DNA of 26,701 bases from Cyclostephanos tholiformis (Eukaryota > Bacillariophyta > Thalassiosirophyceae > Thalassiosirales > Thalassiosiraceae), in NCBI GenBank assembly GCA_036939975.1, contig JALLPB010000293.1, positions 1 to 26,701 on the forward strand, read 5' to 3'. A program made the position numbers and the translations under genes. Shown here in pieces: positions 7 to 20,700 of the stretch. The notes under the pieces were generated by a model, which worked only from the letters and a program-made list of their open reading frames with translations, searched no databases and was not told the origin of the DNA. Within the stretch, counting starts at the first letter, position 1; each line of letters begins with the position of its first letter.

Positions 7-40
7 CTGGTGCTTAAACCCCGCTGGTGCTTAAACCCCG
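7..40. repeat. 17-bp tandem duplication
   Basis: The 17-mer CTGGTGCTTAAACCCCG occurs twice head to tail with no mismatch, about 45 nt before the start codon of the first gene. It lies in the presumed promoter or 5' UTR. It could be a doubled binding site or a chance slippage product; nothing in the sequence decides between them. Confidence 0.85.
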
Positions 41-85
41 ACTTGTACGGTAGGTACGATAGAAGTCATCCTTCGTTCCGAGGTC

Positions 86-1786
86 ATGGGAGCCGGTCAA
101 TCGAACCAGCGATCCACGGAGCCTCCGTCAACGTTGACGTCCTCCCCATTTTCCACTGCAGACGATGGCGCCTCCTCCCCCACCACCGATCCAAACGTCG
201 CCAAGTCGTCCTCGTCGTCGTCGGGAGGAGGAGGAGGAGGACGAGGAGGAGGTGTAGGAGGAGGCTGTCCCATGAAGAACACCGACGGGTCCTATCGCAT
301 CATGCCCGGCTTCGCGTCGCTTTTCGGTGGGAAGCATCCCCCCATCGCGGCCGCGGCTGCTGACAAGAGGGAAGACGATGGTGCTTCCTCCTCGCCGTCG
401 TCGTCGAAACAACCACCGAGACGGCGACTGTACGACGTGTACTCCCGTCCGGTCCCTCTCGATCCAACGAACAACATGCCAGTGTCGAATCCCGATGCCA
501 TCGCGCGTAATTCTCTACCCTCGTCGCGTCAGAGTTCGCCATTGCCCACCGAGCGCGTATCGAGCACAATACCCAAGGGGAATGAGGAAACGTGGACGTA
601 TCCATCCCCACAGATGTTTTACAACGCCCTCGCTAGGAAGGGTAAGCTCGATCCGGAAACTAAAGAGGAGGACATGGCGAGCGTGGTGGCGATACACAAT
701 TGCATGAACGAGGGGACGTGGAAGCGCATATTGCAGTGGGAGAAGGTGCTTACCGGTGGGGAGGACGGCGGTGGGACCGGAGGACCCCGACTGACGAAGT
801 TCCTAGGACGGCCCACCGATCTCTCCCCCAAGGCGTACATTAAGAATCGACTTTTCGGACATCCCCTGCCCTTTGACAGGCACGATTGGACTGTCACCAG
901 GACCGGGACTGACGGCATCGAGGAGGACGTCCGATATGTCATCGATTACTATCACGACGATGCCGCCGCTAGGGTCGACGATGGATCCGGACTTCCGGAC
1001 CTCGACGGCGACGTTGGGCCGAACGGCGGGTTGCGAAGTCTCCTTGTGGATGTCCGACCCGCGGTGGATGGGCCGCACGAGATTTGGGGCAGGGTGGTAC
1101 TAATGCCGCTCGCGAGGCGGGGATGCCGTTCGATGCTTGAATGTCTATTGTATGGCGGACGGGGATTCGGGGACAGGAGCAACTTCGAGCCGTTGCCGTT
1201 GATCCCGAGCAACAGTCTGAGGGAGAGTCTAAAAGATAGCGAGGCGGTGTGGGAGAATATTAAGAAGGATGCATTGATGAGGAAGGGGGTGGGCGCGAAG
1301 GATTGCGAGGGTCAGGCGTGCGCGTCTAACTCATCGCCGTCGGCGAAGGGGGGCGATAAAGACGACGTCGGCATTACCCCGAGTTCCATTCTGCGAGGCG
1401 AGGGATCCACCGTTGATCGTGAGAACGTCCAAGTGATGAGCAGGGAGAAGGCGACGAAGTTTGCGGCTACCTATTCTTTGATCCTTTCCCGTTGCGAGAA
1501 ATCGAAAAATGCGCTACGAACATGCGACTCCGAGGAGGAATGTCGAAAGGCATACGCCGGAATGACCGTATGCGCTGGACAGTTCATGTGCCCACTGCAG
1601 CACTCCAGCTTCGTCGCGAGTTTGGAGACGGAATCGACGAACGAGGAAATGTTCGAGGCGAGAATCAATACGGCCATGGAGATTTTGGGCGAATGCGTAG
1701 CTGAGTTTGATAGAGAAGCGAGCGTCGCCAAGAGTCAATTTCCGGCATTGTTCGATGAGGTAGTCTCGATAGGACGGAAGAAGTAA
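86..1786 (+). CDS. HCCS: Holocytochrome c synthase (cytochrome c heme lyase) with C-terminal twin CX9C extension
   Basis: The enzyme covalently attaches heme to apocytochrome c in the mitochondrial intermembrane space. The single-exon frame encodes 566 residues. Residues about 165-350 carry the family landmarks: W-T-Y-P-S-P-Q-M-F-Y-N-A-L at W170, V-V-A-I-H-N with H204 as the probable axial heme ligand, N-E-G-T-W, then G-R-P-T-D-L-S-P-K-A, G-H-P-L-P-F-D-R-H-D-W, V-R-Y-V-I-D-Y-Y and D-V-R-P-A-V-D. One heme-regulatory Cys-Pro motif (C61-P62-M63) precedes the domain, after a Gly-rich run at 47-60. The N-terminus M-G-A-G-Q-S resembles an N-myristoylation site, but there is no obvious mitochondrial presequence, as is usual for the family. 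Odd feature: about 210 residues follow the domain, including C470-X9-C480-X5-C486-X9-C496-X5-C502, a twin CX9C (CHCH-like) pattern. The start is the first ATG of a long frame. The family call is firm; the extension call is inference. Confidence 0.93.
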   Translation: MGAGQSNQRSTEPPSTLTSSPFSTADDGASSPTTDPNVAKSSSSSSGGGGGGRGGGVGGGCPMKNTDGSYRIMPGFASLFGGKHPPIAAAAADKREDDGASSSPSSSKQPPRRRLYDVYSRPVPLDPTNNMPVSNPDAIARNSLPSSRQSSPLPTERVSSTIPKGNEETWTYPSPQMFYNALARKGKLDPETKEEDMASVVAIHNCMNEGTWKRILQWEKVLTGGEDGGGTGGPRLTKFLGRPTDLSPKAYIKNRLFGHPLPFDRHDWTVTRTGTDGIEEDVRYVIDYYHDDAAARVDDGSGLPDLDGDVGPNGGLRSLLVDVRPAVDGPHEIWGRVVLMPLARRGCRSMLECLLYGGRGFGDRSNFEPLPLIPSNSLRESLKDSEAVWENIKKDALMRKGVGAKDCEGQACASNSSPSAKGGDKDDVGITPSSILRGEGSTVDRENVQVMSREKATKFAATYSLILSRCEKSKNALRTCDSEEECRKAYAGMTVCAGQFMCPLQHSSFVASLETESTNEEMFEARINTAMEILGECVAEFDREASVAKSQFPALFDEVVSIGRKK

Positions 1787-6518: not shown

Positions 6519-9500
6519 TCATAAGATTTCGCATAAGTAGGAATTCGCGTTGTTGATTAATTGAAAGTACTGTGATGCTTCAAGGTGCGTCAGGCCAGTT
6601 TGAGCAGAATTATGCTTGTCTGGATGGTAAATTCGTGCTAAAGCACGGTATCGGACTTTGACTTCTGTTTCGGTGGCTCCGAGGCCCAGCCCTAGGACTT
6701 TGAACGAGTGTTCGAGACTGTACCCTACTAGGAGGGGGTCAAAGTCCCCCTTGTGTTGGTGATATTGTGGGAGAGAGGATGACGGTCGTTGTGGTGGTGG
6801 TGGTTCGGGAGGACGCCGACGAGGGGGAGACTGAATAGGTGGTGAGTCCGCCGAATTTGTGTTATGATTTGGTTCGCCTGGCATGTGATTGTTGTGCTCA
6901 GAGGTGTTGGTACGCGGGCTGCGTCGTCGAGGTGGTGGCCAATTTGTGGGACGGGTGGGAATTGGTAACCGCGGAGAAAGGAGGCATTCGACGAGTTGTT
7001 CCCAATATTGCTCATGGGAGGCTTCGCGGTACCAGTCCCGGACTGATCCGTAATCATCGATGAGAACTTCAGGGACTTTGGCAAAAAGGAGGCGAAGGTG
7101 TCGTACAATAATGTCCTTGTTGTGAAGGTAAGGACGTCCAACTTTCCGTTTGTGTTGGCAGCATGCCGTAAGCATTCGACGGGCTGGGGCATCGTGTGGG
7201 CCACGTACCACTTTGCCGATGAAGCTGAGTTGTCGTGCCGCAATCATATGTTGTATGCATGGTATGTCGTAAAACATCTGACGCACTTTCTCGTTTCGTA
7301 TGTGATCCTTTTTTACGTCACTCATCGAGAGGTTGAGTATCCGTCGAATATTCCGATGGAGAAAAACTTCAAGTTGACGGAGAAGAGATTGCCGCAGAGA
7401 CCAATTTTCGCATCCCCATAAAAGGAGGTTGACGGGGATTGCGCGAAAGAGGAGGTACTTGCTGTACGTGTCGAGATGTGGGTTGCGCCACACCTCTTTC
7501 AAAGCTCCCATACTTTGGGAGGCAGCAGCAAGTCGGGCATTGATGTCGTCGTCGTCGCGGAGGTTGTACGAGATGCGCGATCCTAGATACTTGAATTTGC
7601 GTGAGAAGGTGACGTATCCGTCAGCCACGTTGATCGGTGCTGTTTCAGGAAGAGAATCGTATCGTATGTCTTCCCTTGCAGTGCGTGCTTGTTCTGATTC
7701 TCGTTGATGTGGAAGACATAAATCACTGGAAACAGTTGGGTTCGTGAGTCGTGGGTTGTCGTCATCTGAGTAGTCGTCGGCCAGTGGTGGATGATGATAT
7801 TTGTCATTGAAGAATTGAGGGGGTGGAAAAAAAACACATTCGGTCTTCGAGGAGTCACCGCCTCGGCCAATGTGGACTTCGAGTCCAAATCGTGCAAGGT
7901 GACCGTGTATCAGTGTTATTCCCTCGATAAGATCCGAACGAGTGGGAAAGGGGAAGGCTCCGTCGTCAACGTAGAGAAGCTGGAATATATTATATGCAGT
8001 GAGTTTGCGTGAGAGATATATTCTTGGGGGGTGACCTCTGATGCATCCGGTGTGTAGTTCTTCATCGGGTGCATGTCCCACGGTGAGTACATTTATTCCT
8101 GCGTGTTTCCAAGCAATTTCGAGGGTCTCGGCCGCGGCTGACATTAGGAAGAGAAATAAAACTGGCGCCATGTTGTCGCCTTGTCTAACTCCAACACCTT
8201 GTGATATTTCTCTAACCTCATTCTCAATTTTCAGCACTACTCTCAGGTTTGTATAAACAGTTTTTATTGCGTTAACAAACTTTGGGGGAGCACCGTAGCG
8301 TTCGAGGATCTGAAGGAGAAGGTTATGATTGGCGGTATCATAAGCTTTGACGAGGTCGACAAAGGCGACGAACGAAGGTAAGTCGTGATTTTTGTGGGCA
8401 TTCAAAAGCGTTTTCAGTGTGAAGAGGCCGTCTTGACATCCAAGTGTAGGAGTGCCTCCGAATTGAAATTTGGTGCCATGGAGCTCGAGAAGTCGGAATG
8501 CTCGTTTGTTCATTACAGACGAAAAAACCTTGCTACATACGTCCATTAGCATAACTCCTCGCCATTTGTTGGGGTCAGAGAGAGTACCTGATTTAGGTAC
8601 TGGAACGCATTGGCTTTGGTGCCAGTCCTTGTAGTCCGCATTTCCTTCGAAAAAATCGGAAACATACCGGTGAACACGTCGTCGCATAGTGGTATTCATG
8701 GCTTTATATGCTTCTGGCGGAATACTGTTGAGACCTGGGCTTTTACCAAATTTGAGTTTGTTAATGGCGTGATTTATTTCTTCGAATGTTATGGGTGAAT
8801 CAATGTCGTGTAGTGTAGGGTGTTGTGGAATGTCATCAAGGACAGAGAGATCGACTGGCCGGTGATTGTTGTAGACTCGTTCAAAGTGTGGACCGAACAC
8901 AGACATGTTTTCCTTGCTGTTCGACGCAAGTCGTCCGTTTTCCATTTTCATTGCCATCGTGACTTGTTTCTTGTGGTGGACTGTCATACCTCCAGTAAGG
9001 AGACGAATATGTTCCCATGCAAGCCGTGGGTTCATAGCCATGTCGTGTATTTTGGAACATAGGTGAGAAGCCCACTTTGCCTTCGCAATGATAACTTTGT
9101 CTTTAACATGTTTCGAAAGACGGTGAAGCGAGTCACGAAGGGTTGTTACAATGGAGGGTGGGAGGTGTCGTGCCGAGCGGAGTGTGTGGATGATTGTATT
9201 CCTTTCGGCAATCGCTGGTGCAAGATCATCGAGAGAGAATTGAAACCAGTCATTGCATGTTGTTTTGACGAGTAGGGCTGTTTCGGTACCAGCAGCAAGG
9301 ACAAGCTTGTTGAAGTGTTCGTATTCCAGGTCAGGCGTAGGTTCTGTGGAGGCAAGGAGGATTGAATTGTACTGCCGAGCCGCTGCTGTATCAGTGGCAA
9401 TCTTGCGCCAATCGATGTTACCACGGGTAAGTGTAGGACGTGTCTTGTGTTTAAGTGACGTCATCGTGATGTCTAATCTTACAGCAGTGTGGTCACTGTC

Positions 9501-10745
9501 GACCCCATCCGACGTGATGCGACAATTTTTAACTCTGCAGTGTAGTTGTTGGGAACATGCAAAAATGTCGATCATCGTTTGGTCACTGTCGTTAATGTTG
9601 GTGAATGTGTAGTGGCTCGGCGCCGAAAAAAATGTGTTTTCGATTCGTAGTCCATGGGAGAGGTAAACCGAGATCAAATTGATGCCACGTGTATTTCGCT
9701 GTCTTGGGCCATGTGGTCCGAGTACCTGGCGGAATTCATCACAATCGCGTCGGCCCAGTTTCGCATTAATATCAGCGCCCATAATGACGTGTGAATTGTG
9801 CGGTATTTGGTGTAGTAGTGATGTGAGTACTCCATTAAAGTCGTCATGGGGGATGTCGTGGCAGGGATGGTATGCAGATACCAAACATATGCGAAGTGAT
9901 TTCCCTTTGATTTTTCGTTGACAGTGATCACGACAGTCGAATTTAAGTGGGAGTCCGATAAAGCGACCAGCAAATGCGCCTGACGTATCAGTTGTGATTG
10001 GCGTGGGGGATCCAGCAGATTTCCATGCTTGGTAGAATCTTGGTGACAGAACAATGGCAACTCCGCGGAAGAGATGGTTGCGTCCAGTTTCACCAATGGG
10101 TGAGTTGGTACGGAAAATATGGTAACCTCCTATATTTGTGTCAAAGTCATCGTCTTCTAACCACGTTTCTTGTATAAGCCATGCATCAATGTCATCACAG
10201 CGCATGCAATAAACGAGGTACTCGAGTTTTGTCATGTCGCAGTCGCTGTTGGGGATGAGTGAACCATCTCCATTTCTCGATCGGCACCAAAGACCATGAA
10301 CATTTTGCGTGATAATTTTGCAGATATCCATGATGGGCTTGAAAGTAGAAAGTGGAGTGAGAGATGTGATCGGAGATGGAGAGTTGGAGGAAGTGAAAGA
10401 ATCGCCTTCATGATCTGGAGCAAAAGTATCAATGTCATAAGAATTCGGGTCGCGGGGCATGGCGTGATCGGCGTCATTGTCGGTGACATCAGTGGCCAAG
10501 GTAGTATATGAAATAGGGTTGCCTTGAATTAGGTCCCGGTGAATGTCACAAGATCTTGTGAGGGATGTAAGTGGCAACCAGTTGACGATGGCGTCGAAGG
10601 CCGTGTCGGGGTGGGCTTGGGCCGTGACGATTGTTGACAATAAGATCGGAAATGGAGAATCGTTGGAAGTGAAAGAATCGTCTTCGTGATCTGGAGGAGA
10701 TATATGGATAGCATCGATGTTGTAAAAATTCGGGTCGCGGGGCAT
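6519..10745 (-). CDS. LINE polyprotein: AP endonuclease, reverse transcriptase and C-terminal DnaJ J domain
   Basis: This replicates the retrotransposon: the endonuclease nicks target DNA and the RT copies the RNA at the nick. The frame is open from 10940, but its first codon there is TTG and a stop lies at 10959; the first ATG is at 10745, with others at 10460 and 10331. Numbering from 10940: two 95-residue tandem repeats (about 9-191); endonuclease (about 207-495) with Q-N-V-H-G, L-I-Q-E-T-W (E258), G-A-D-I-N-A (D390, N392), M-I-D-I-F (D458) and S-D-H (482-484); RT (about 715-1040) with F-V-A-F-V-D-L-V-K-A-Y-D (D862), G-V-R-Q-G-D and L-L-Y-V-D-D (D992, D993); a LINE-type post-RT region with L-L-L-W-G-C-E-N-W; a Pro-rich linker (about 1325-1392); and a J domain (about 1410-1473) with H1439-P-D1441 that ends the protein. 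There is no gag-like domain and no RNase H. Confidence 0.88.
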   Translation of the reverse strand: MPRDPNFYNIDAIHISPPDHEDDSFTSNDSPFPILLSTIVTAQAHPDTAFDAIVNWLPLTSLTRSCDIHRDLIQGNPISYTTLATDVTDNDADHAMPRDPNSYDIDTFAPDHEGDSFTSSNSPSPITSLTPLSTFKPIMDICKIITQNVHGLWCRSRNGDGSLIPNSDCDMTKLEYLVYCMRCDDIDAWLIQETWLEDDDFDTNIGGYHIFRTNSPIGETGRNHLFRGVAIVLSPRFYQAWKSAGSPTPITTDTSGAFAGRFIGLPLKFDCRDHCQRKIKGKSLRICLVSAYHPCHDIPHDDFNGVLTSLLHQIPHNSHVIMGADINAKLGRRDCDEFRQVLGPHGPRQRNTRGINLISVYLSHGLRIENTFFSAPSHYTFTNINDSDQTMIDIFACSQQLHCRVKNCRITSDGVDSDHTAVRLDITMTSLKHKTRPTLTRGNIDWRKIATDTAAARQYNSILLASTEPTPDLEYEHFNKLVLAAGTETALLVKTTCNDWFQFSLDDLAPAIAERNTIIHTLRSARHLPPSIVTTLRDSLHRLSKHVKDKVIIAKAKWASHLCSKIHDMAMNPRLAWEHIRLLTGGMTVHHKKQVTMAMKMENGRLASNSKENMSVFGPHFERVYNNHRPVDLSVLDDIPQHPTLHDIDSPITFEEINHAINKLKFGKSPGLNSIPPEAYKAMNTTMRRRVHRYVSDFFEGNADYKDWHQSQCVPVPKSGTLSDPNKWRGVMLMDVCSKVFSSVMNKRAFRLLELHGTKFQFGGTPTLGCQDGLFTLKTLLNAHKNHDLPSFVAFVDLVKAYDTANHNLLLQILERYGAPPKFVNAIKTVYTNLRVVLKIENEVREISQGVGVRQGDNMAPVLFLFLMSAAAETLEIAWKHAGINVLTVGHAPDEELHTGCIRGHPPRIYLSRKLTAYNIFQLLYVDDGAFPFPTRSDLIEGITLIHGHLARFGLEVHIGRGGDSSKTECVFFPPPQFFNDKYHHPPLADDYSDDDNPRLTNPTVSSDLCLPHQRESEQARTAREDIRYDSLPETAPINVADGYVTFSRKFKYLGSRISYNLRDDDDINARLAAASQSMGALKEVWRNPHLDTYSKYLLFRAIPVNLLLWGCENWSLRQSLLRQLEVFLHRNIRRILNLSMSDVKKDHIRNEKVRQMFYDIPCIQHMIAARQLSFIGKVVRGPHDAPARRMLTACCQHKRKVGRPYLHNKDIIVRHLRLLFAKVPEVLIDDYGSVRDWYREASHEQYWEQLVECLLSPRLPIPTRPTNWPPPRRRSPRTNTSEHNNHMPGEPNHNTNSADSPPIQSPPRRRPPEPPPPQRPSSSLPQYHQHKGDFDPLLVGYSLEHSFKVLGLGLGATETEVKVRYRALARIYHPDKHNSAQTGLTHLEASQYFQLINNANSYLCEIL
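6522..6743 (-). other. J domain (HPD motif) at the end of the LINE polyprotein
   Basis: The last about 65 residues follow the J-domain pattern: F-K-V-L-G-L at the start of helix I, E-V-K-V-R-Y-R-A-L-A-R-I-Y-H-P-D-K for helix II and the loop, then Y-F-Q-L-I-N-N-A-N-S-Y-L for helix III. HPD codons are at 6626-6618. J domains recruit and stimulate Hsp70. The frame is continuous with RT through a Pro-rich linker and no intron is needed. Confidence 0.87.
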
Positions 10746-10916
10746 GGCATGATCGGCGTCATCATTGGTTGTTTCAGCGGCCAAGGTAAGGCCAGAAACA
10801 GGGTTACCTTGAATTGAGTCCCATTGAATGGCACGAAATCCCGCAAGGGATGGAAGTGGCAGCCAGTGTTTGATGGCGTCGAAGGCCGTGTCGGGGTGGG
10901 CTTGGACCGTGACAAT
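10347..10916 (-). repeat. 285-bp tandem duplication at the 5' end of the LINE ORF
   Basis: Two diverged in-frame copies, about 95 codons each, start near 10916 and 10631 in element orientation. Shared blocks include Q-A-H-P-D-T-A-F-D-A-I, I-Q-G-N-P and D-A-D-H-A-M-P-R-D-P-N. The only in-frame ATG of the first copy is inside the repeat (10745). The layout resembles tandem 5' UTR monomers seen in some LINEs, here within an open frame. Confidence 0.85.
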
Positions 10917-10958
10917 TTTTGACAAAGATGTTGATTCCAAGCGACGGAGAAATACCTG

Positions 10959-11875: not shown

Positions 11876-12973
11876 ATGAAGGAGAAGGTGGGGTGAGTGT
11901 TATGAATGAGAAATAATTTGTGGGGAGCATGGAACGGGGCGGCAGCCAGGGGGGCGAGCTTTCTGTTTATGCTGACAAAACACTCATTTAGTTTCTTCAT
12001 TCTAATCGAACCGTCAACAATATATCTTCGTCTTCATAAAAAAATCAACATTGTTAAAACAGCGAATTTTACGCCCATATTGTCGACGGGGCAACCGTGT
12101 CTCAGTCGCTCGTGTCTTCCACGAAGCTCCTGTCATCCAAGAAGGTCCCCACTGTCATCCACTTTTACGATGGAGGGTGAGGAGGATGCCGCCCCTGCGC
12201 AGCACAAATGGAGGTATGGGCCTCGAGATATGGGAATCAGGCTCAGTTTCTCATGGTTTGTGTGGACGCAGCAGGGGTGGCAATTCAATTTGGAAAGTTG
12301 TTCCAGTTGACAAATGTTGTTAATTGTTGGATTCCTAGTCGAGGTTACATGCCGGTGGGGTGAGTGATTTATTGTTTATCGTTATGACTTTTAGGGCGTT
12401 CACTTGAAAGTCATCGATCACTTTTCGCGATGCAGGTATGGCCAATTGGGTTGTTCAGGATTCGTAGTCTCCGATGGACAGGGTTGCTTTGTAAGCCGTA
12501 AGACGAAAGCGTACCTCCAGCATGGCTACAACGCCTTTTTGCATGTTGAGGAGTTGCTTCACCAGAACTTCGCCATCCAGCCATGGACGAAAGACAAGAA
12601 CTCCAAGGCGGAAGATGTCTTGAATCCCAATTGGACCTTGCCATCAGTTGGTGATTATAGAATGGATCATGAACACGAAGAGTGCGAGGAGGCTCTTGCT
12701 CTTCTACTCCGTACCCATTCAGCTGAATCACTTAGGAAAGCACTCGAAAAATTGACAGAACACTTCCAGCACGAAGAAAGCTTGATGAAATCGTCTGGAT
12801 TCGGAATCCTGGGCGAGTCATTCTCTCCCTTCGCCAACCATGTCAAAGATCACGAAAGGATCCTTGACATAGGGTACTTCGAGTTGGCCAAACTGACCAA
12901 GACTAAGGAACCACACAAGTCTTTCTTGGCGATGACATGCTCCCATGCGCAAGAAAATGGGGCACCCGCCTGA
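11876..12973 (+). CDS. Thioredoxin-fold/hemerythrin fusion, probable selenoprotein (in-frame UGA at 12178), three exons
   Basis: Proposed exons are 11876-11892, 12063-12359 and 12436-12973, giving 283 residues. Both introns (170 and 76 nt) interrupt a codon after its second base and share the donor context GTGGG|GTGAGTG, with acceptors ACAG and GCAG. Residues about 6-145 form a thioredoxin-like domain: V-P-T-V-I-H-F-Y-D-G-G, then UGA (codon 45), G-G-C48-R-P-C51. The UGA falls exactly on the first Cys of the thioredoxin CxxC, giving U-x-x-C. The frame stays thioredoxin-like beyond it (F-L-M-V-C-V-D-A; Y-M-P-V-G-Y-G-Q-L-G-C-S-G-F), so readthrough as selenocysteine fits better than termination or splicing. 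Residues about 175-280 are hemerythrin-like: D-H-E-H185, H214-F-Q-H-E218-E, H240-x3-H244, H275. The usual final Asp ligand is Gly here. Likely role: redox coupled to a di-iron O2, NO or peroxide sensor; this is inference. The ATG at 11876 is the first after an in-frame stop at 11852. Confidence 0.8.
12178..12180 (+). other. In-frame UGA read as selenocysteine
   Basis: The TGA is flanked in frame by thioredoxin-fold sequence on both sides: F-Y-D-G-G before, G-G-C-R-P-C after. Aligned gaplessly with F-W-A-T-W-C-G-P-C of TlpA-type thioredoxins, the TGA takes the position of the nucleophilic Cys. An automatic caller would probably splice at the adjacent GTGAGG (12177), losing the active site. Confidence 0.75.
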
Positions 12974-12993
12974 CCACCAGCGGCGGATATTGT

Positions 12994-13073
12994 CTTGATT
13001 GACAAGTCCGTCGCTGAAAATGTTGTACGTGAATTTAGGTTGCACGCAACACGGTTTGATATGTTGTATCAAG
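12994..13073 (+). promoter_or_regulatory. Candidate SECIS element in the 3' UTR
   Basis: A eukaryotic SECIS-like stem-loop begins 21 nt after the stop codon. Basal helix: CTTGAT (12994-12999) with ATCAAG (13068-13073), and ACAA (13002-13005) with TTGT (13064-13067). Core: TGA (13015-13017) opposite GA (13058-13059), the expected sheared G-A pairs. Apical helix: TGTTG (13021-13025) with CAACA (13047-13051), and CGTG (13028-13031) with CACG (13043-13046). Apical loop: 11 nt starting with the AA (13032-13033) required in SECIS, 14 nt after the TGA. The base before the TGA is C rather than the usual A or G, which weakens the call. Found by hand pairing, not by a folding program. Confidence 0.6.
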
Positions 13074-13477
13074 GTCGTCTTAAATAGTAATTTGGGACTA
13101 CCCCTACCCCCATCGTGTGCCAAGCCAGTGTTCAACAACCCTCAAAGCAGAATGGTGACCTATATCGTGCATTATGCATCGAATAGTGGGTTTGATGTTG
13201 CTACGAGAACTCTTGATCCAAGGCTTCACCTATCCATTTTGGTCTCCCCTGAATTCATCAAGTGAATCTTCACGAGGGCAGATTTTCTAGCAGAATGACA
13301 ATGTAATGAATACTTCTTTTAGTGGAGTTGCAGTTTCGTTTGAGATTGCTTGTAGTCATCCCGAAGATTAACAAATAAAATGTGCAAAAAAATTCCACAA
13401 ATGATAATTATTTTCCGCATCCATGCCGATCAAGAATAGACAGAGGCAACACATCTATCATAAAGAAGAAGCTCATC

Positions 13478-14621
13478 TCAAACTTTAGAGTGGGAATCAA
13501 ACAAATTACGCAGCGGGCCGCTGCATGTTTTCCCCTGACGAAACGCTGTCCAGGAAAATGGATGTTGTAGGAGGTCTTTCTCTGGTGTCTTAATAAGACA
13601 TCTACCTAACAATTTGTCCAGCGTCTCACGTTTTTGCTTGTCATCAAGGTTCAACGCTTTCAATATCATTTGCTGATAAACCTCCATTTCGCGAGAAATC
13701 AAACAGCACAAGAATACTCTATTCAATGTACTAATATCATTGCCATGTGTAGTGAAGTTCTCGCTGCCGTGGGTAAACTTGAATCCTTCCATCATGCCAA
13801 AATCTCCCGTCCCTCCAAGGATTTGATCCAAAAGAATGACGTCTTCCCACAAATGTTCCGTTCGAACAACGGCTACTGAATGGTTTGGCCTTTGGCCTAA
13901 AGTGTACTTCAGGTAATATTCATAATTGAATTCAAAGTGAACTCCGCCACTTCCCAAGCAAAGCATCCATGCCCATTCTGGAGCATTTGACGCTGGCTCC
14001 ATTTCGTATATCATCAATCATCGCATCAAAGCTTTTCGAAAAGCACTGCGTATAAAATTCTGCATGAGTTGGGAATATTGTGTTATCGTGGTATTCATTC
14101 CGATGGTGGTTGTATGCTGAGATGAGTCTTGAAATCGGATCACGCACTGTGAAGAGAAACACGTTTGTGTTATCCAACAACCACTCCCTTACTTCTTTCG
14201 GGAGAAGAGTACCCCCCATGTGAAAGTAACCCAAAGTATGCCGTGTAAGTTTCGAATCAACTCCTGGAGGATGCCTGTAGCATGACGAGGTGCCATTCGC
14301 ATCACCACGGAACGTGTTGACCATGCATCTGACTGCCTCGGCAGTATTGAGTAATCCTAATCCTATGACGAAAGTGGACCCTCCAGCCTTTCCGACGTGG
14401 ATTAAATATATTCGAGGATTCTCAGGCATCAACTTACTAGTTGCATGTTCATCGCGGACGACTATAGAAGGAGCGTCATTGTCTCTCACTTCCAACGTGA
14501 TATATGTAAAGGCGTTCAAAATACGTCTCTGTTGGGGCAGATATGATAGAAACAGGACGAGAACATACATCAGCCACATCTGCTTCTTCGCTATGATTCT
14601 CGTGGAAATTCCGGCCGCCAT
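13478..14621 (-). CDS. Type II membrane sulfotransferase-like gene, interrupted by one frameshift
   Basis: This family transfers sulfate from PAPS to carbohydrate or other acceptors, usually in the Golgi. The ATG at 14621 starts a protein with a short cytosolic N-terminus, one membrane segment (M-W-L-M-Y-V-L-V-L-F-L) and a lumenal domain. The PAPS 5'-phosphosulfate loop is I-Y-L-I-H-V-G-K-A-G-G-S-T; the 3'-phosphate site is F-T-V-R-D-P-I-S-R-L-I-S-A-Y. The first frame stops at 13932. The continuation (H-F-E-F-N-Y-E-Y-Y-L-K, then V-V-R-T-E-H-L) is in another frame to 13478. One extra base near 13940 explains the change; an intron does not, since the shared open stretch is only about 86 nt and lacks good splice sites. 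It is either a sequencing error or a young pseudogene. It converges on the selenoprotein gene and diverges from the RdRP gene. Confidence 0.75.
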
Positions 14622-15157
14622 ATTGAGCAACTACGATACGACGGCAGGGCGGATGATACAGTGATTCGGGTATCCCGGAACGGCAGATCTGCTGACGACA
14701 GAACTTATATCCCGCTGGTTTTTGAACGGAGACTGAACCTTCCCAAATGTGCCCACACTTATGGCTAGCTCAGTGCGCATAGATGCACAAGTCCAAAAGA
14801 AACAAATGGTCCAGTGAGGATTGGCAAGTATCCTCTCTTATTGTTGACGCGTCGTTGTTTACTATATGGGTGCGGAGTTGGCGCGGAAAGGCGAGCAATG
14901 TTGTCACTCACTCATCTCAATCTCATCTCTCTCTACCACAGGCAGGCAAAGAGAGGTAGGTATGTTGTGTGTTTTATCCTATATATTATAAGTACGTATT
15001 GTATCGTATTTTTTTTCGGCGAAAAATCGAGACAACGCACGTCGCCACTGCACACACAATAACATCAAAAATAGGTAATAATAATATTCCCTTCGTCGAG
15101 CAGTCGCGATTCGATGCGAGAGTGGGCTGCATAGCCTGCTCCATCTCGTACGATATC
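14622..15157. promoter_or_regulatory. Divergent promoter region between sulfotransferase-like and RdRP genes
   Basis: About 535 nt separate the two start codons. A TATA-like AT run (ATATATTATA, 14981-14990) lies about 170 nt before the RdRP ATG. The RdRP frame is open back to 14969, but that upstream part begins with GTG and looks like 5' UTR. Confidence 0.45.
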
Positions 15158-17743
15158 ATGCCGCTCTCATTTCGAAACGCCCGACGATCAATATCGAAAT
15201 TGCGTCCCTTCAAACGGCGGTCTACGAGATCACTGGGTGCTCTCATCGGTAGTCTGGCAGTGCCGCCTGTCATAACTACTCAGAGTGGTTCTCTCCACCC
15301 GAATGACAATGGCACAAACTATGCGCTTATATCTCCGTTGGGAAGTGTCGACGGAGACCGTGGTACCCGGTATAGTTATAACGGCTTTGATGGATCAGCA
15401 TCAATTGAGAGCGAGATTGACACCTCAGAGGATGAAATTAGGCCAGGAGAACCACGTGATATTTCTCCCGATGTAGTGCCAATTGATATTGACACCGCAC
15501 AAGAGGAAAGGGCGGAAGATACCGATTCTATCAACACTGCATTTGTTATCCTAGATGCGACATCCCATCCCAAAAAACAACCGAATAACGCAGCATCAAT
15601 TGAGAGCGAGATTGACACCACGGAGGTTGAAATTAGGCCAGGGGAAACAGATGCCTTTGCTTCGGATGTAGTTCCAGTTGATATTGACACCGCACAAGAA
15701 GAGAGGGTGGAAGATGCCGACTCTATCAACGCTGCATTTGTCACATTTGTCGCCGTAGATACGACCTCTCCGATACCCGTGGAGCCTGACATGAATAATT
15801 ATGAAAATTCATCCCCCAATGGTCGCTTCGTCGTCGGTGAATGCGTTCGAGTTGTGAAAAGGGGCCACAAAAACTTTGGAGCGTATGGCAAAATCCAAAG
15901 GACAACTAAGTGCTATGTTTTCTTCTTCGACGAGAGCAAAAAGGCGACAGTCCAGATAGCGTCAACATCCGTTGAGCGTCATTCCGTCTCCAACGGTTCA
16001 TCACAAACTGTAAGCACAGTAGAAACTGTTTATTGTGATGTGAGCGGTAGTAGCATTGTGTCAGATGAGGGCGTTAATGGTGGGGGACCATGTGAAGGCT
16101 TTGCGGGGGTAGGACTATCGGCAGCAGTCAGCCTTGGCTTGAGCATTGAGAAGATTTGCTTCGGGAGTTCAAAAAAAATGACGAACGCATTCTCAAATAT
16201 CTGGGGCGTCGGCAATTACTTGCCCCCCATAGAAATCTCTCTTGAGTCCAATGATAACCCAGATGATTTACAACTGAAACTACGTCTTGACAACAAAGAC
16301 TATGCACTTTACCATGCTGAAGTTAGCGAGGACAAGACTGGTTCCTTATTCACCAAATCTAAAAAGGTGACGGCACATTATGTCTGCTCAGAGAACCTTC
16401 GGGATCATGAAGAGAATCAAGCTGATTTTGGCACGCTATCATCAGCCAAGACCTGGGCACGTCGTGGGCTCTACCTCTCTCCAGCAATGAAACTGAACAG
16501 AGAGTACGCTGTAAAGAATATTAGCGGGAGTGATTTGACTATGATTGACGACGTCGGTACTGTTGGATGTGGATTTATCTCATCAAAGTATCTGGAGGAC
16601 CTCCTTGGCAACGATGCACGGGCGAAACGTGCACTGGGCATCCAAATTCGCATTTTCGTTCCGACGTACGGTGTATTCAAGGGCATGTTGATGCGGAAAA
16701 ACATTATTGGCGAACCAATTCAGCTGAATACTTCTCTAAGGAAAGTCGCTCCATCAAGAAGCAAAGACGCATCTGATGATGGGTACATCGTCATCAAGAA
16801 TGTATTCCCGTCATCAGACAACTTCATCATTGGGCGCAAATTTCTAAGTTCACAAGACCCTAACAAGAAAAGATTAAAACCAATCACTGAATTGAAAGGA
16901 TTCAAGAAATCTCTCACAACTGCAAAATCTTGCAAGATATCATCTATGCATGTGAGACTTTTGACAGGACTTGGTGTAGCTGCCCTGTCGTTAGAGCAGT
17001 ACTCGAGGAACTACAAAAAAGATCCAGAAAAGTTATGCCATACTCATCTTGTTGGAATGGCAGATCCAACGAATAAGTTGCCTCCTAACTCAGTGTTTAT
17101 AACTGGAATGACAGGGTCAATACCTGACGAGCTCTTCATTACAAGATCGCCTTGTTTGGAAGCTACGGACGGACGAGTGATCAAGGTCGTGAGGACGAAG
17201 CCGGATGGAATGGAAAACGACGATTGGAATTTTCTGCAAAGCCTCACATTTGGGGCAGTAATTTTTGGGGATCCTAAACAAGGAGATCGGTCTCTGCCGG
17301 AACTTATTGCCGACGGAGATTTGGACGGAGACTTATACTTCGTCTGCTGGGATGAGACGGTAGTATCCCAGATTCGTCGCATTCCTATTACCGATGATGA
17401 GCGTTTCAAGCCGCCGGAACATGACGGGGGGGGGAAATATGACCCAGAGTGGTTTAGCAAAGCTCAAACCTTCATCTCACAAATTCCTAAACTTCATATT
17501 GGCATCGACCGTTTGGTATGCTTATTTTATAACGAGTGTATTCAAAGGGATGACATAGAGGATCCAGACGCGGTGTGCTTCGCGAGGTCATTCAAACAGG
17601 CATTAGATGTAAAAAAAGAGGGCGACCTCATCTTTCTCCCACGACATCTCTGGACTGTGGTGCCAGAGAAATTACAGAAGTATCTCACAGCAGATAATAC
17701 TGCTCTATCTAGGAACTTCGAAATAAATATTTTTGTTAAATAG
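15158..17743 (+). CDS. RNA-dependent RNA polymerase of the RNA-silencing (RDR/QDE-1) type
   Basis: This enzyme makes double-stranded RNA from single-stranded templates to start or amplify small-RNA silencing. From the ATG at 15158 the protein has 861 residues with no intron. Catalytic D721-L-D723-G-D725 (17318-17332), in D-G-D-L-D-G-D-L-Y-F-V, binds the metal ions. Other family landmarks are F-V-P-T-Y-G-V-F-K-G-M-L near residue 510, V-F-I-T-G-M-T-G-S-I-P with R-S-P-C-L-E-A-T-D-G-R-V about 60-80 residues before the catalytic motif, and A-R-S-F-K-Q-A-L-D-V-K-K-E-G-D after it. The N-terminal third has two 65-residue acidic repeats and, near residues 225-280, a small-barrel-like V-G-E-C-V-R-V-V-K-R-G-H (KOW/Agenet-like, uncertain). 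Only 136 residues follow the catalytic motif, shorter than in plant RDRs. The gene ends 15 nt from the PEPC stop on the other strand. Confidence 0.9.
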   Translation: MPLSFRNARRSISKLRPFKRRSTRSLGALIGSLAVPPVITTQSGSLHPNDNGTNYALISPLGSVDGDRGTRYSYNGFDGSASIESEIDTSEDEIRPGEPRDISPDVVPIDIDTAQEERAEDTDSINTAFVILDATSHPKKQPNNAASIESEIDTTEVEIRPGETDAFASDVVPVDIDTAQEERVEDADSINAAFVTFVAVDTTSPIPVEPDMNNYENSSPNGRFVVGECVRVVKRGHKNFGAYGKIQRTTKCYVFFFDESKKATVQIASTSVERHSVSNGSSQTVSTVETVYCDVSGSSIVSDEGVNGGGPCEGFAGVGLSAAVSLGLSIEKICFGSSKKMTNAFSNIWGVGNYLPPIEISLESNDNPDDLQLKLRLDNKDYALYHAEVSEDKTGSLFTKSKKVTAHYVCSENLRDHEENQADFGTLSSAKTWARRGLYLSPAMKLNREYAVKNISGSDLTMIDDVGTVGCGFISSKYLEDLLGNDARAKRALGIQIRIFVPTYGVFKGMLMRKNIIGEPIQLNTSLRKVAPSRSKDASDDGYIVIKNVFPSSDNFIIGRKFLSSQDPNKKRLKPITELKGFKKSLTTAKSCKISSMHVRLLTGLGVAALSLEQYSRNYKKDPEKLCHTHLVGMADPTNKLPPNSVFITGMTGSIPDELFITRSPCLEATDGRVIKVVRTKPDGMENDDWNFLQSLTFGAVIFGDPKQGDRSLPELIADGDLDGDLYFVCWDETVVSQIRRIPITDDERFKPPEHDGGGKYDPEWFSKAQTFISQIPKLHIGIDRLVCLFYNECIQRDDIEDPDAVCFARSFKQALDVKKEGDLIFLPRHLWTVVPEKLQKYLTADNTALSRNFEINIFVK
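15398..15787 (+). repeat. 195-bp tandem repeat in the RdRP N-terminus
   Basis: Two diverged 65-codon units start with A-S-I-E-S-E-I-D-T and share D-I-D-T-A-Q-E-E-R. The period is exactly 195 bp (15398 to 15593). The encoded region is acidic and probably disordered. Confidence 0.88.
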
Positions 17744-17758
17744 AACGGAATGTTAAAT

Positions 17759-20700
17759 TTATCCACTGTTTTTCATGCCTTGCGCAATACCCTTGATTGA
17801 TAAGAGGAGGGCATCTGTGCGGATGTCTTTAATGTTCTTTAACTCCGGCGTAAGATCTGACGAATCGTCATCGGGCATAGAGCGGAGAACCTTGAGTATC
17901 TCTGCCTGAACAACATTAATCGAATCAACGTATGGATTGCGTATCGTTGAAGATGCGCGCATCAATTGAACGTGAGGTCCACTAATTTCTGTTGCCCCTG
18001 AAACATCAATCACAGCCTGACGGGTCTCAACAAGCTTGTCTCGCATCTCGTTGCCGAGACTCATCAGTTGAGGGTCCACAAGCAACTCATCGTAATTCTT
18101 AGTGATAGAGAAATCAGTCTTGGATATTAGCATTGAAATGAGCGAAATAATCTCGCGAAACCAAGGCCATTCTTGATACATCTCACGAAGAACTCTCTGG
18201 TCCTCTTCGTTCTGGAAAAGATGAGGAAGAAGAGTGATAAAAGTTGAGGGATTTGTCCAGAGCTCAGAAATGTCTAACTTTGTTAACTTACGCCTGAATT
18301 CAAACCCGCACCGACGCCGAGCCAAGCAGAAAGGTGCATACGAGTCTGCGCCCAAGCAAAGGTCCAAGGGATCGCCCGTAGACTCTCGACGCCCCCCTTC
18401 GGATTACGCTTGGCAGGTCTGCTCCCAATATTCAATCTACCAAGCTCGAGCTCGGGCGTGGCTTGTCTGAAGTAGGGCACAAACCTAGGATCATCACGGA
18501 CGGTACTCCTATAGGCCGCACAAGATACTTCGCTCACACGCTGCATTTGATCCCTCCACTCTCGCTTCGGCTCCACCCGTTTGACAAAGGATTCCCTCAA
18601 CAGGGCCGCAGTGTAGATGTCGAGGGATCGTTGCGCAATTTCAACTGATCCAAAGTTTTGACCGATCATCTCGCCTTGCTCGGTGACTCGGAAGCGACCA
18701 TTGATGGTGTTTGGGGGGTGCGAGAGAATAGCTCGATAGAGAGCAGGGTTGCCTCCCCTACCTACGGTCCCACCCTTGCCGTGGAAAAAAGTGAGCTGGA
18801 TTCCAAATTTATCGGCTACTCTTGCCATTGCCTCCTGGGCAGTGTATTGCACCCAACAGGCGGCAAGCCTTCCGGCATCCTTCGCACTGTCAGAATAGCC
18901 GACCATGACCTCTTGCTTCCCGTTTATCGATCCAATATAACTCGCGATGCTAAAGAGAGTCTCGAGTTGCTTAGGGCTGTTTGTAAGGTCGTCCAATGTT
19001 TCAAACAGTGGCACCACGCGCATCTTAATAAATACGGTTTAAATTGCAGGGAGTCAATGAACGGTCAGCGGATTCGTTCTGGTGCACCAGAATAATTACT
19101 CATCATGATTGACGTCGTATGCGCTCACATCCAGAGCACGATCAATAGTACTTACCAGCTTGCCGTTAGCCGAAGTCATCCCAAACTGTTTCTGGAGCAA
19201 CATGACCGCCAACACGTCGCTGGCAGTATTCGCTTGACTAATAACGTATGCACCAAGGCTCTCCGGCTCAAGCTCGGATGCAACCTTGTACACCATCAAG
19301 GTCTTCCTAATATCAGGGTCAAGCCCTATTGTATTCGCCTCGATGTCACGGATACGAAACAGAGGTCTACGGTTATTGAGCTCAGACTGCAACCAATTCA
19401 ACCTAGCAGCTTCATCCCATTCCTGTTCATATCCAGAAAGCGGTCCATCAAAGTCAGAAAAAGACAAAGAGAGATGTATGCACGCGCAAGAAATTGAAAC
19501 ACTTGTCCATCGGCATCACAACCGGCGTGGGTATTTCCAAGGAGCAACGTACCTTGTAACTCCCAATTCCCAAATGACGAGTGATCGCATCCAAGGCCAG
19601 CGTGTGCCTAGTACTTTCCTCCCTTATGTCAAGCGGAACCAACGTCATGCCGAAAACCGCCACACGTCGGATGATGTCGGATACGTGTCCATCGGCGACC
19701 AACTCGAAGCCCGTCTCGACGAGTGAATTGTATATGACCTTCAACGGACCTAGCAATTCCTCCGACTTGACGATTGGCTCCACGTCCTCCCACCCGGCGA
19801 GGGCACCGAACGCGTTCTCCGACGACGAGAAGTGTATGTGATCGTTCAGGTGATGTAGCTTCGCCTCGCAATCCTTGACCGTGCGGACTAGTCGCTTGCG
19901 CAGGTGTCCGATGACGCGTCGGTACTTTTCGCGCACGTCGTACGACTCCTTCACGGTACTCGCTAATTCTTCCAATTCCTTCGAGAAACGACTGCTGATG
20001 GCCAAGTCGGAATACAGCAGGTTGAGGTCGTTCAGGAATAACTTCGCGGCACGTAGGCGCTGGTGCGTCACGACCTCGAGGGTGACCTCCGGCGTGCAGT
20101 TGGGATTGCCATCGCGATCGCCGCCGATCCAGCTTGCGAACTTGACGGGAGCGCACTCCACGGGCAATTTCTTCCCGAGCGTGACGCGACACTGGGCATC
20201 AAGTTTCCGCAGGTAAGACGGCACGGCGTCCCATAGAACAGATTCGATGACGGCGTTGCCGCCCGCGGCCTCCTTTTGGACCGTTGGTTTGACGCGTCTG
20301 ATTTTGTGTATTGATGGGGGGGAATCACACGCATATAATAATTATATAAGATGTGTGCAAAAAGAATTACGAAATTTTCACATATTGCATAGTCGAGGGT
20401 CATGCTGGTGGAGAGATTATTCTCCGATTCACGTACCGAATCTCGTCCGATCCCCAAATGGCGGCGATGATGCCACGGAGGTTGTTCATGGCCTCAGCGC
20501 GTTCGAACGGGTGCAAGTCGGTGCGTTCCACATAAGCAAGCAATTCGGAAATGTTCTTGTCTATTTACAATATTTAGATGATCGAAAAAAAAAAAATGAG
20601 AACGATCGGGATCGATGAGTTCACAACGAAAATATCACCACAAACGACAACACGCGCATAGAATGACTTGGGACGAACGAGAAAAATAAAACTCACATTT

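Follow-up and report, generated by a model that had tools for sequence, protein, structure and literature searches.

Selenocysteine (Sec) has been reported in thioredoxin-like proteins of algae. Jiang et al. (2020, PMC7539508) state in one sentence that an algal TlpA selenoprotein contains a hemerythrin domain, and the part of their article available to us gives Sec in 80% of the members of TlpA and three other families. For Thalassiosira pseudonana, the available text of Lobanov et al. (2007, PMC2375036) names one "thioredoxin-like" or "thioredoxin-fold" selenoprotein. Here we analyzed a gene that is likely, though not proven, to belong to the published TlpA family. It lies in a 26,701-nucleotide stretch of DNA from the diatom Cyclostephanos tholiformis (GenBank assembly GCA_036939975.1, contig JALLPB010000293.1, positions 1 to 26,701 of the forward strand; hereafter the window), part of an assembly of 25 Mb in 1,566 contigs. 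We consider it probable that the product of this diatom gene combines a TlpA-like thioredoxin domain with a hemerythrin-like domain, that each of its two in-frame UGA codons likely specifies Sec, and that readthrough of the second adds the last two of seven iron ligands.

The gene is on the plus strand and is predicted to have three exons. Exon 1 (11876 to 11892) holds the start methionine, codons 1 to 5, and two further bases; it is backed by P0227 (MKEKVGDFYAHIV), a relative whose start is the same. Exon 2 (12063 to 12359) encodes the first part of the thioredoxin domain, including the active site, and exon 3 (12436 to 13087) the rest of the thioredoxin fold, a linker, and the hemerythrin-like domain. 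A preliminary description of this DNA had placed two introns of equal phase here, and both (11893 to 12062, predicted, 170 nucleotides [nt]; 12360 to 12435, 76 nt) are indeed of the GT-AG type in phase 2. The second is absent from transcript-derived relatives: in P0007 and P0013, both from MMETSP, the junction is read straight across (PVG-FGQLGC). Joined, the exons give 966 nt ending in TAG and encode 321 residues; codons 45 (UGA-1, 12178 to 12180) and 284 (UGA-2, 12971 to 12973) are UGA.

The first UGA and the thioredoxin active site

Relatives were collected in three protein searches. The two long ones yielded 146 and 402 proteins; the best 120 of each, 172 different proteins in all, form the set of long relatives to which counts out of 172 refer. 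A search with the 44 N-terminal residues, which admitted only short proteins, returned 115, all of which were considered.

That one frame runs through the first TGA, as had been proposed, is borne out by homology. A profile of 78 N-terminal relatives matched positions 12058 to 12177 (E = 7e-22). On the other side, 9 relatives gave a profile that matched 12181 to 12360, beginning directly behind the TGA (E = 5e-23). Since these matches abut UGA-1 on either side, coding homology is continuous through it. The short N-terminal open reading frames (ORFs) of relatives end at the same place: 107 of 115 stop one residue before alignment column 45 (...HFYDGG), which is more than chance would give. One (P0185) continues past column 45 as W-GGCRPCAAQ, and the other seven continue into unrelated sequence, perhaps introns.

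The preliminary description also held that gene callers would hide the Sec site, and the models agree. A Met-x-x-Trp motif just past the active site is the start of 125 of the 172 long relatives (126 by position), and the segment is missing from a Pseudo-nitzschia model (P0119). In 16 cases, an N-terminal and a C-terminal ORF have longest contigs of equal size, which for some on short contigs may be chance. Seven of these pairs exceed 4 kb: P0222/P0075 (4,497), P0199/P0130 (4,677), P0259/P0145 (5,329), P0173/P0062 (21,894), P0282/P0169 (29,740), P0279/P0108 (993,534), and P0263/P0079 (1,679,170). They are likely to be the two halves of one gene.

Codon 45 falls at the catalytic center of the domain, whose thioredoxin fold was supported through relative P0023. 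When X was placed at residue 45, phmmer aligned FYDGGXGGCRPCA without a gap to FWAAWCGPCRQIA of thioredoxin 1t00, a weak sequence match (E = 0.013). The ungapped alignment (FYDGGXGGC against FWAAWCGPC) puts residue 45 at the first Cys and C48 at the second Cys of CGPC, so the earlier placement of the Sec at the first position of CxxC is supported. It likewise led us to drop the idea that CRPC is the canonical CxxC motif with U three residues before it. Sec is the likely meaning of UGA-1, to judge by this alignment, in which Trp would be an odd nucleophile, together with the genome's tRNA-Sec and selenophosphate synthetase genes (see below).

The second UGA and the di-iron ligands

The preliminary description ended the gene at 12973. 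Instead, the TGA at 12971 to 12973 is, judging from the sequence, most likely a second recoded UGA rather than a terminator. Another 37 codons follow in frame before a TAG at 13085 to 13087, and this open segment (12974 to 13084) corresponds to the last hemerythrin helix, with its H-x4-D motif. A profile of the C-terminal helix from 18 relatives matched precisely this segment (E = 1e-10); it was the only significant match in the window, the next best of 1,004 six-frame pieces reaching E = 1.3. Conserved coding sequence thus flanks both in-frame UGAs.

The segment past UGA-2 matters for the metal site. The hemerythrin ligand set, assigned from conservation in relatives and alignment to myohemerythrin, spans 12674 to 13060 and comprises five His and two carboxylates in a four-helix bundle fold. 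H185 (12674 to 12676), H214, E218, H240, and H244 are kept in all 171 aligned relatives, and H308 (13043 to 13045) and D313 (13058 to 13060) are present in all 20 relatives that reach that far. The first three ligands aligned to myohemerythrin, and the spacings within motifs (29, 4, 4, and 5) equal those in the canonical numbering of hemerythrin. Because H308 and D313 lie past UGA-2, the canonical seven-ligand site would be complete only if UGA-2 were read through. Many relatives carry the hemerythrin domain PF01814 as a precomputed annotation. The window protein, at 21.9 bits, falls short of the 25.3 bits that Pfam requires. A PF01814 search of this genome gave no match, at this gene or elsewhere.

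At the column of UGA-2 (column 2), the 20 long relatives with the last helix show, by eye, W in 10, Cys in 4, a possible Cys in 2 more, and no residue in 4. The Cys residues may reflect Sec/Cys exchange among homologues at this column. Four nucleotides past UGA-2 begins a predicted 16-bp RNA hairpin (12978 to 13016, plus strand), a possible Sec redefinition element predicted from one sequence. Its folding energy is -26.1 kcal/mol (z = -5.75), and 120 of 20,000 synonymous recodings were as stable. No comparable hairpin follows UGA-1. The hairpin came to our attention through an Rfam g2 match on the minus strand (12972 to 13019), which at 29.8 bits lay below the gathering score of 70 and was itself taken as chance.

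The best-surviving alternative, which we nonetheless regard as unlikely, is that UGA-1 alone is recoded and UGA-2 is a true stop, the downstream helix being a relic or 3' untranslated region (UTR). It would account for gene models that lack the last helix, as 152 of the 172 long relatives do (some are fragments, and many end a few residues past a Cys), and a weak candidate for a Sec insertion sequence (SECIS) lies just downstream of UGA-2. However, stops end gene models by default, and relatives with Cys at the UGA-2 column are open there. The 37 downstream codons match the last helix of the family as protein and differ from P0005 by several conservative changes, and they supply the two missing ligands; invariance of the other five would be odd for a bundle without helix D.

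Selenium machinery and competing readings

Sec machinery is encoded in the same genome. It contains three tRNA-Sec genes with a TCA anticodon, on separate contigs of the assembly, and a Sec-type selenophosphate synthetase gene (SPS2) with TGA in SLKG-U-ACKVP on contig C1166.

A second alternative, which we hold to be distinctly improbable, is that the two positions are Trp: relatives would have TGG, and the TGAs of the window would reflect near-cognate readthrough by tRNA-Trp or nonsense mutations. Every residue seen at column 45 in relatives is in fact W (9 of the 172 long relatives, plus P0185). A private mutation is nonetheless hard to square with the stop at column 45 in 107 of the 115 short ORFs. 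W also occurs at both columns in all eight proteins that cover both, and pairs of identical or near-identical sequences carry W in one and a stop in the other (P0185/P0189 at column 45; P0005/P0010 at column 2). The simplest reading of these sequences is a translation table, applied by some gene callers, in which TGA is Trp. Moreover, Trp would be a strange replacement for a nucleophilic Cys, the four Trp codons of the frame up to UGA-2 are all TGG, Cys is found at column 2, and the genome has tRNA-Sec and SPS2. The weakest alternative, that UGA-1 is intronic or that translation starts at Met54 to give a stand-alone hemerythrin, matches what gene callers produce (the late-starting models, P0119, and the seven N-terminal ORFs that run into unrelated sequence), but it is very improbable given homology that is continuous through codon 45 with CRPC directly after it, also in P0185, and given that initiation at Met54 would remove the opening strands and the active site from a fold that is otherwise retained.

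Several observations weigh against the reading with two Sec residues. At column 45, the 172 long and 115 short relatives show a stop, Trp, or no residue, so that the Cys homologues anticipated by the preliminary description were not found there. The count of 107 in 115 tells where short ORFs stop, not how often column 45 is open. TGA, as opposed to TAA or TAG, was seen directly only in the window, and the W codon of relatives, TGA or TGG, is deduced; scans of viral and genome contigs with the family alignment found no DNA of relatives. To this may be added the last helix missing from most long gene models. The hairpin is not unique in its stability, as 54 of 10,658 stretches of 60 nt in the window fold as stably. 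SepSecS was not found in this assembly, and neither of the two SelB-profile matches examined, out of 10, was EFSec, these being of the IF2 and eIF2-gamma types. The glutathione peroxidase of this genome is the Cys form, the MsrA match lacks a TGA, and models for Rdx (SelT/W type) and deiodinase had no match in the genome, although the deiodinase model also matched no control genome. Finally, the function proposed below is derived from fold and residues alone.

A further point on the same side is that no convincing SECIS was found in 12971 to 14500. The search combined Rfam at gathering and permissive thresholds, three descriptors of our own, a local stability scan, and a shuffle test. The weak candidate mentioned above (13014 to 13060, plus strand; CUGA..AA..UGA) was rejected: it lies within the coding frame, and 2 of 200 shuffles equaled its score, which is not enough. 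Past the TAG (13088 to 13390), the best score was equaled by 66 of 200 shuffles. Rfam SECIS_1 had no match in the whole genome, and our own scan at the SPS2 gene gave no clear SECIS. Because there was thus no positive control, the absence of a SECIS at this gene is not evidence.

Convergent with the selenoprotein gene is a sulfotransferase-family frame on the minus strand (13935 to 14630; PF03567, E = 1.7e-5) within a span of 13478 to 14630. If 13478 to 14017, which has no Pfam match, is another sulfotransferase exon, less than 400 nt is left for the 3' UTR.

As for the distribution of the gene, the closest named relatives among the matches listed are from centric diatoms, namely, Stephanocyclus meneghinianus (67% identity), CCRYP_015350 (64%), and Thalassiosira exigua (59%). 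One named match (P0025) is labeled as the dinoflagellate Alexandrium tamarense, perhaps through contamination, and most matches are metagenome sequences without a name. A protein search of the C. tholiformis assembly returned only this gene's own exons. Eight relatives (P0056, P0068, P0106, P0113, P0144, P0150, P0157, and P0159) have extra sequence inserted between the thioredoxin and hemerythrin domains, in which a motif that is VLPCSLAP-like or similar occurs.

Elsewhere in the window, a cytochrome c/c1 heme lyase is encoded at 35 to 1783 (plus strand; PF01265, E = 5e-53). A 1,479-residue frame at 6522 to 10958 (minus strand) combines a reverse transcriptase (PF00078) with a C-terminal DnaJ domain (PF00226, E = 2.8e-9) and may be either an element of the non-LTR (long terminal repeat) type that ends in an unusual J domain or a frame that continues into a host gene. 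A 927-residue frame at 14960 to 17740 (plus strand) contains a eukaryotic-type RNA-dependent RNA polymerase domain (PF05183, E = 1.9e-26), and phosphoenolpyruvate carboxylase exons (PF00311) lie at about 18286 to 20341 on the minus strand.

Proposed mechanism and comparison with known systems

The preliminary description had suggested a redox sensor or an enzyme that handles peroxide or NO. We propose that the protein reduces peroxide or O2-derived species in a selenium-dependent manner, with the thioredoxin site and a C-terminal Cys/Sec pair exchanging electrons with the di-iron site. In this scheme, U45 would be the redox nucleophile that attacks the substrate, and C48 or C51, a third thiol, would resolve the intermediate, as in TlpA/ResA or deiodinases. 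A second redox pair could consist of C273 and U284 in the loop leading into helix D, near the di-iron bundle, whose iron site would bind O2, peroxide, or NO. Electrons from the thioredoxin or glutathione system would pass through the thioredoxin site and the C-terminal pair, and peroxide, O2, or NO would be reduced at or near the iron.

Since helix D lies behind UGA-2, cells would produce the iron-competent form only if they had enough selenium. Diatoms rank among the major producers of the sea; some of them need selenium, and iron is often limiting for them. We would give roughly even weight to the further possibility that this arrangement is a selenium-gated iron site, in which hairpin-aided insertion of Sec at UGA-2 appends the helix with the last ligands, selenium is needed twice, and the protein acts as a coincidence device for selenium, iron, and oxygen across diatoms. 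If true, the likely catalytic residue and the gate for completing the di-iron site would both be Sec, and a single polypeptide would link the two trace elements. The same arrangement would account for the state of this gene in the database searched, where it is split between a short N-terminal piece that ends at HFYDGG and a late-starting hemerythrin that breaks off short of its final helix.

Several known systems share parts of this design. Hemerythrin and myohemerythrin (1a7e and 2mhr) have the same four-helix bundle and seven ligand positions; here, in contrast, a thioredoxin domain is fused to the bundle, and the loops between motifs are longer (22 and 64 residues), the second containing a Cys and the UGA codon. 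Compared with the TlpA/ResA/DsbE thiol-disulfide oxidoreductases, the nucleophile is likely Sec, and the motif U-G-G-C-R-P-C includes a third thiol. To our knowledge, iodothyronine deiodinases (Dio2, 9h48; Dio3, 4tr3) lack a hemerythrin domain, unlike this protein.

The hairpin after UGA-2 resembles the Sec redefinition element of SELENON, a stem-loop just 3' of its UGA that, according to the available part of the source (PMC8704476), was tested by mutation, whereas ours is a prediction from one sequence. A diatom protein that responds to iron and contains hemerythrin-like and CHY domains (PMC5156380) differs in make-up, according to the text available.

The algal TlpA and T. pseudonana selenoproteins are, like the product predicted here, Sec-containing thioredoxin-like algal proteins, and the present gene has the same combination of a thioredoxin-like domain with a probable Sec and a hemerythrin domain. 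The portions of PMC7539508 and PMC2375036 that were available make no mention, for this family, of a second Sec, its position before helix D, or a link to iron ligands. Nor did the records listed in literature searches on hemerythrin with selenoproteins or diatoms and on TlpA selenoproteins, supplements not covered, mention a second Sec or an iron-site link. The preliminary description is confirmed, at the level of sequence, in its observation of an in-frame UGA in a thioredoxin-hemerythrin frame, and its interpretation as a whole is partly supported. Its author knew of no characterized protein of this make-up; the fusion, which our analysis supports, was already known in outline from the sentence in Jiang et al., whereas what appears to be new, relative to the published text available, is the second Sec together with the gated iron site.
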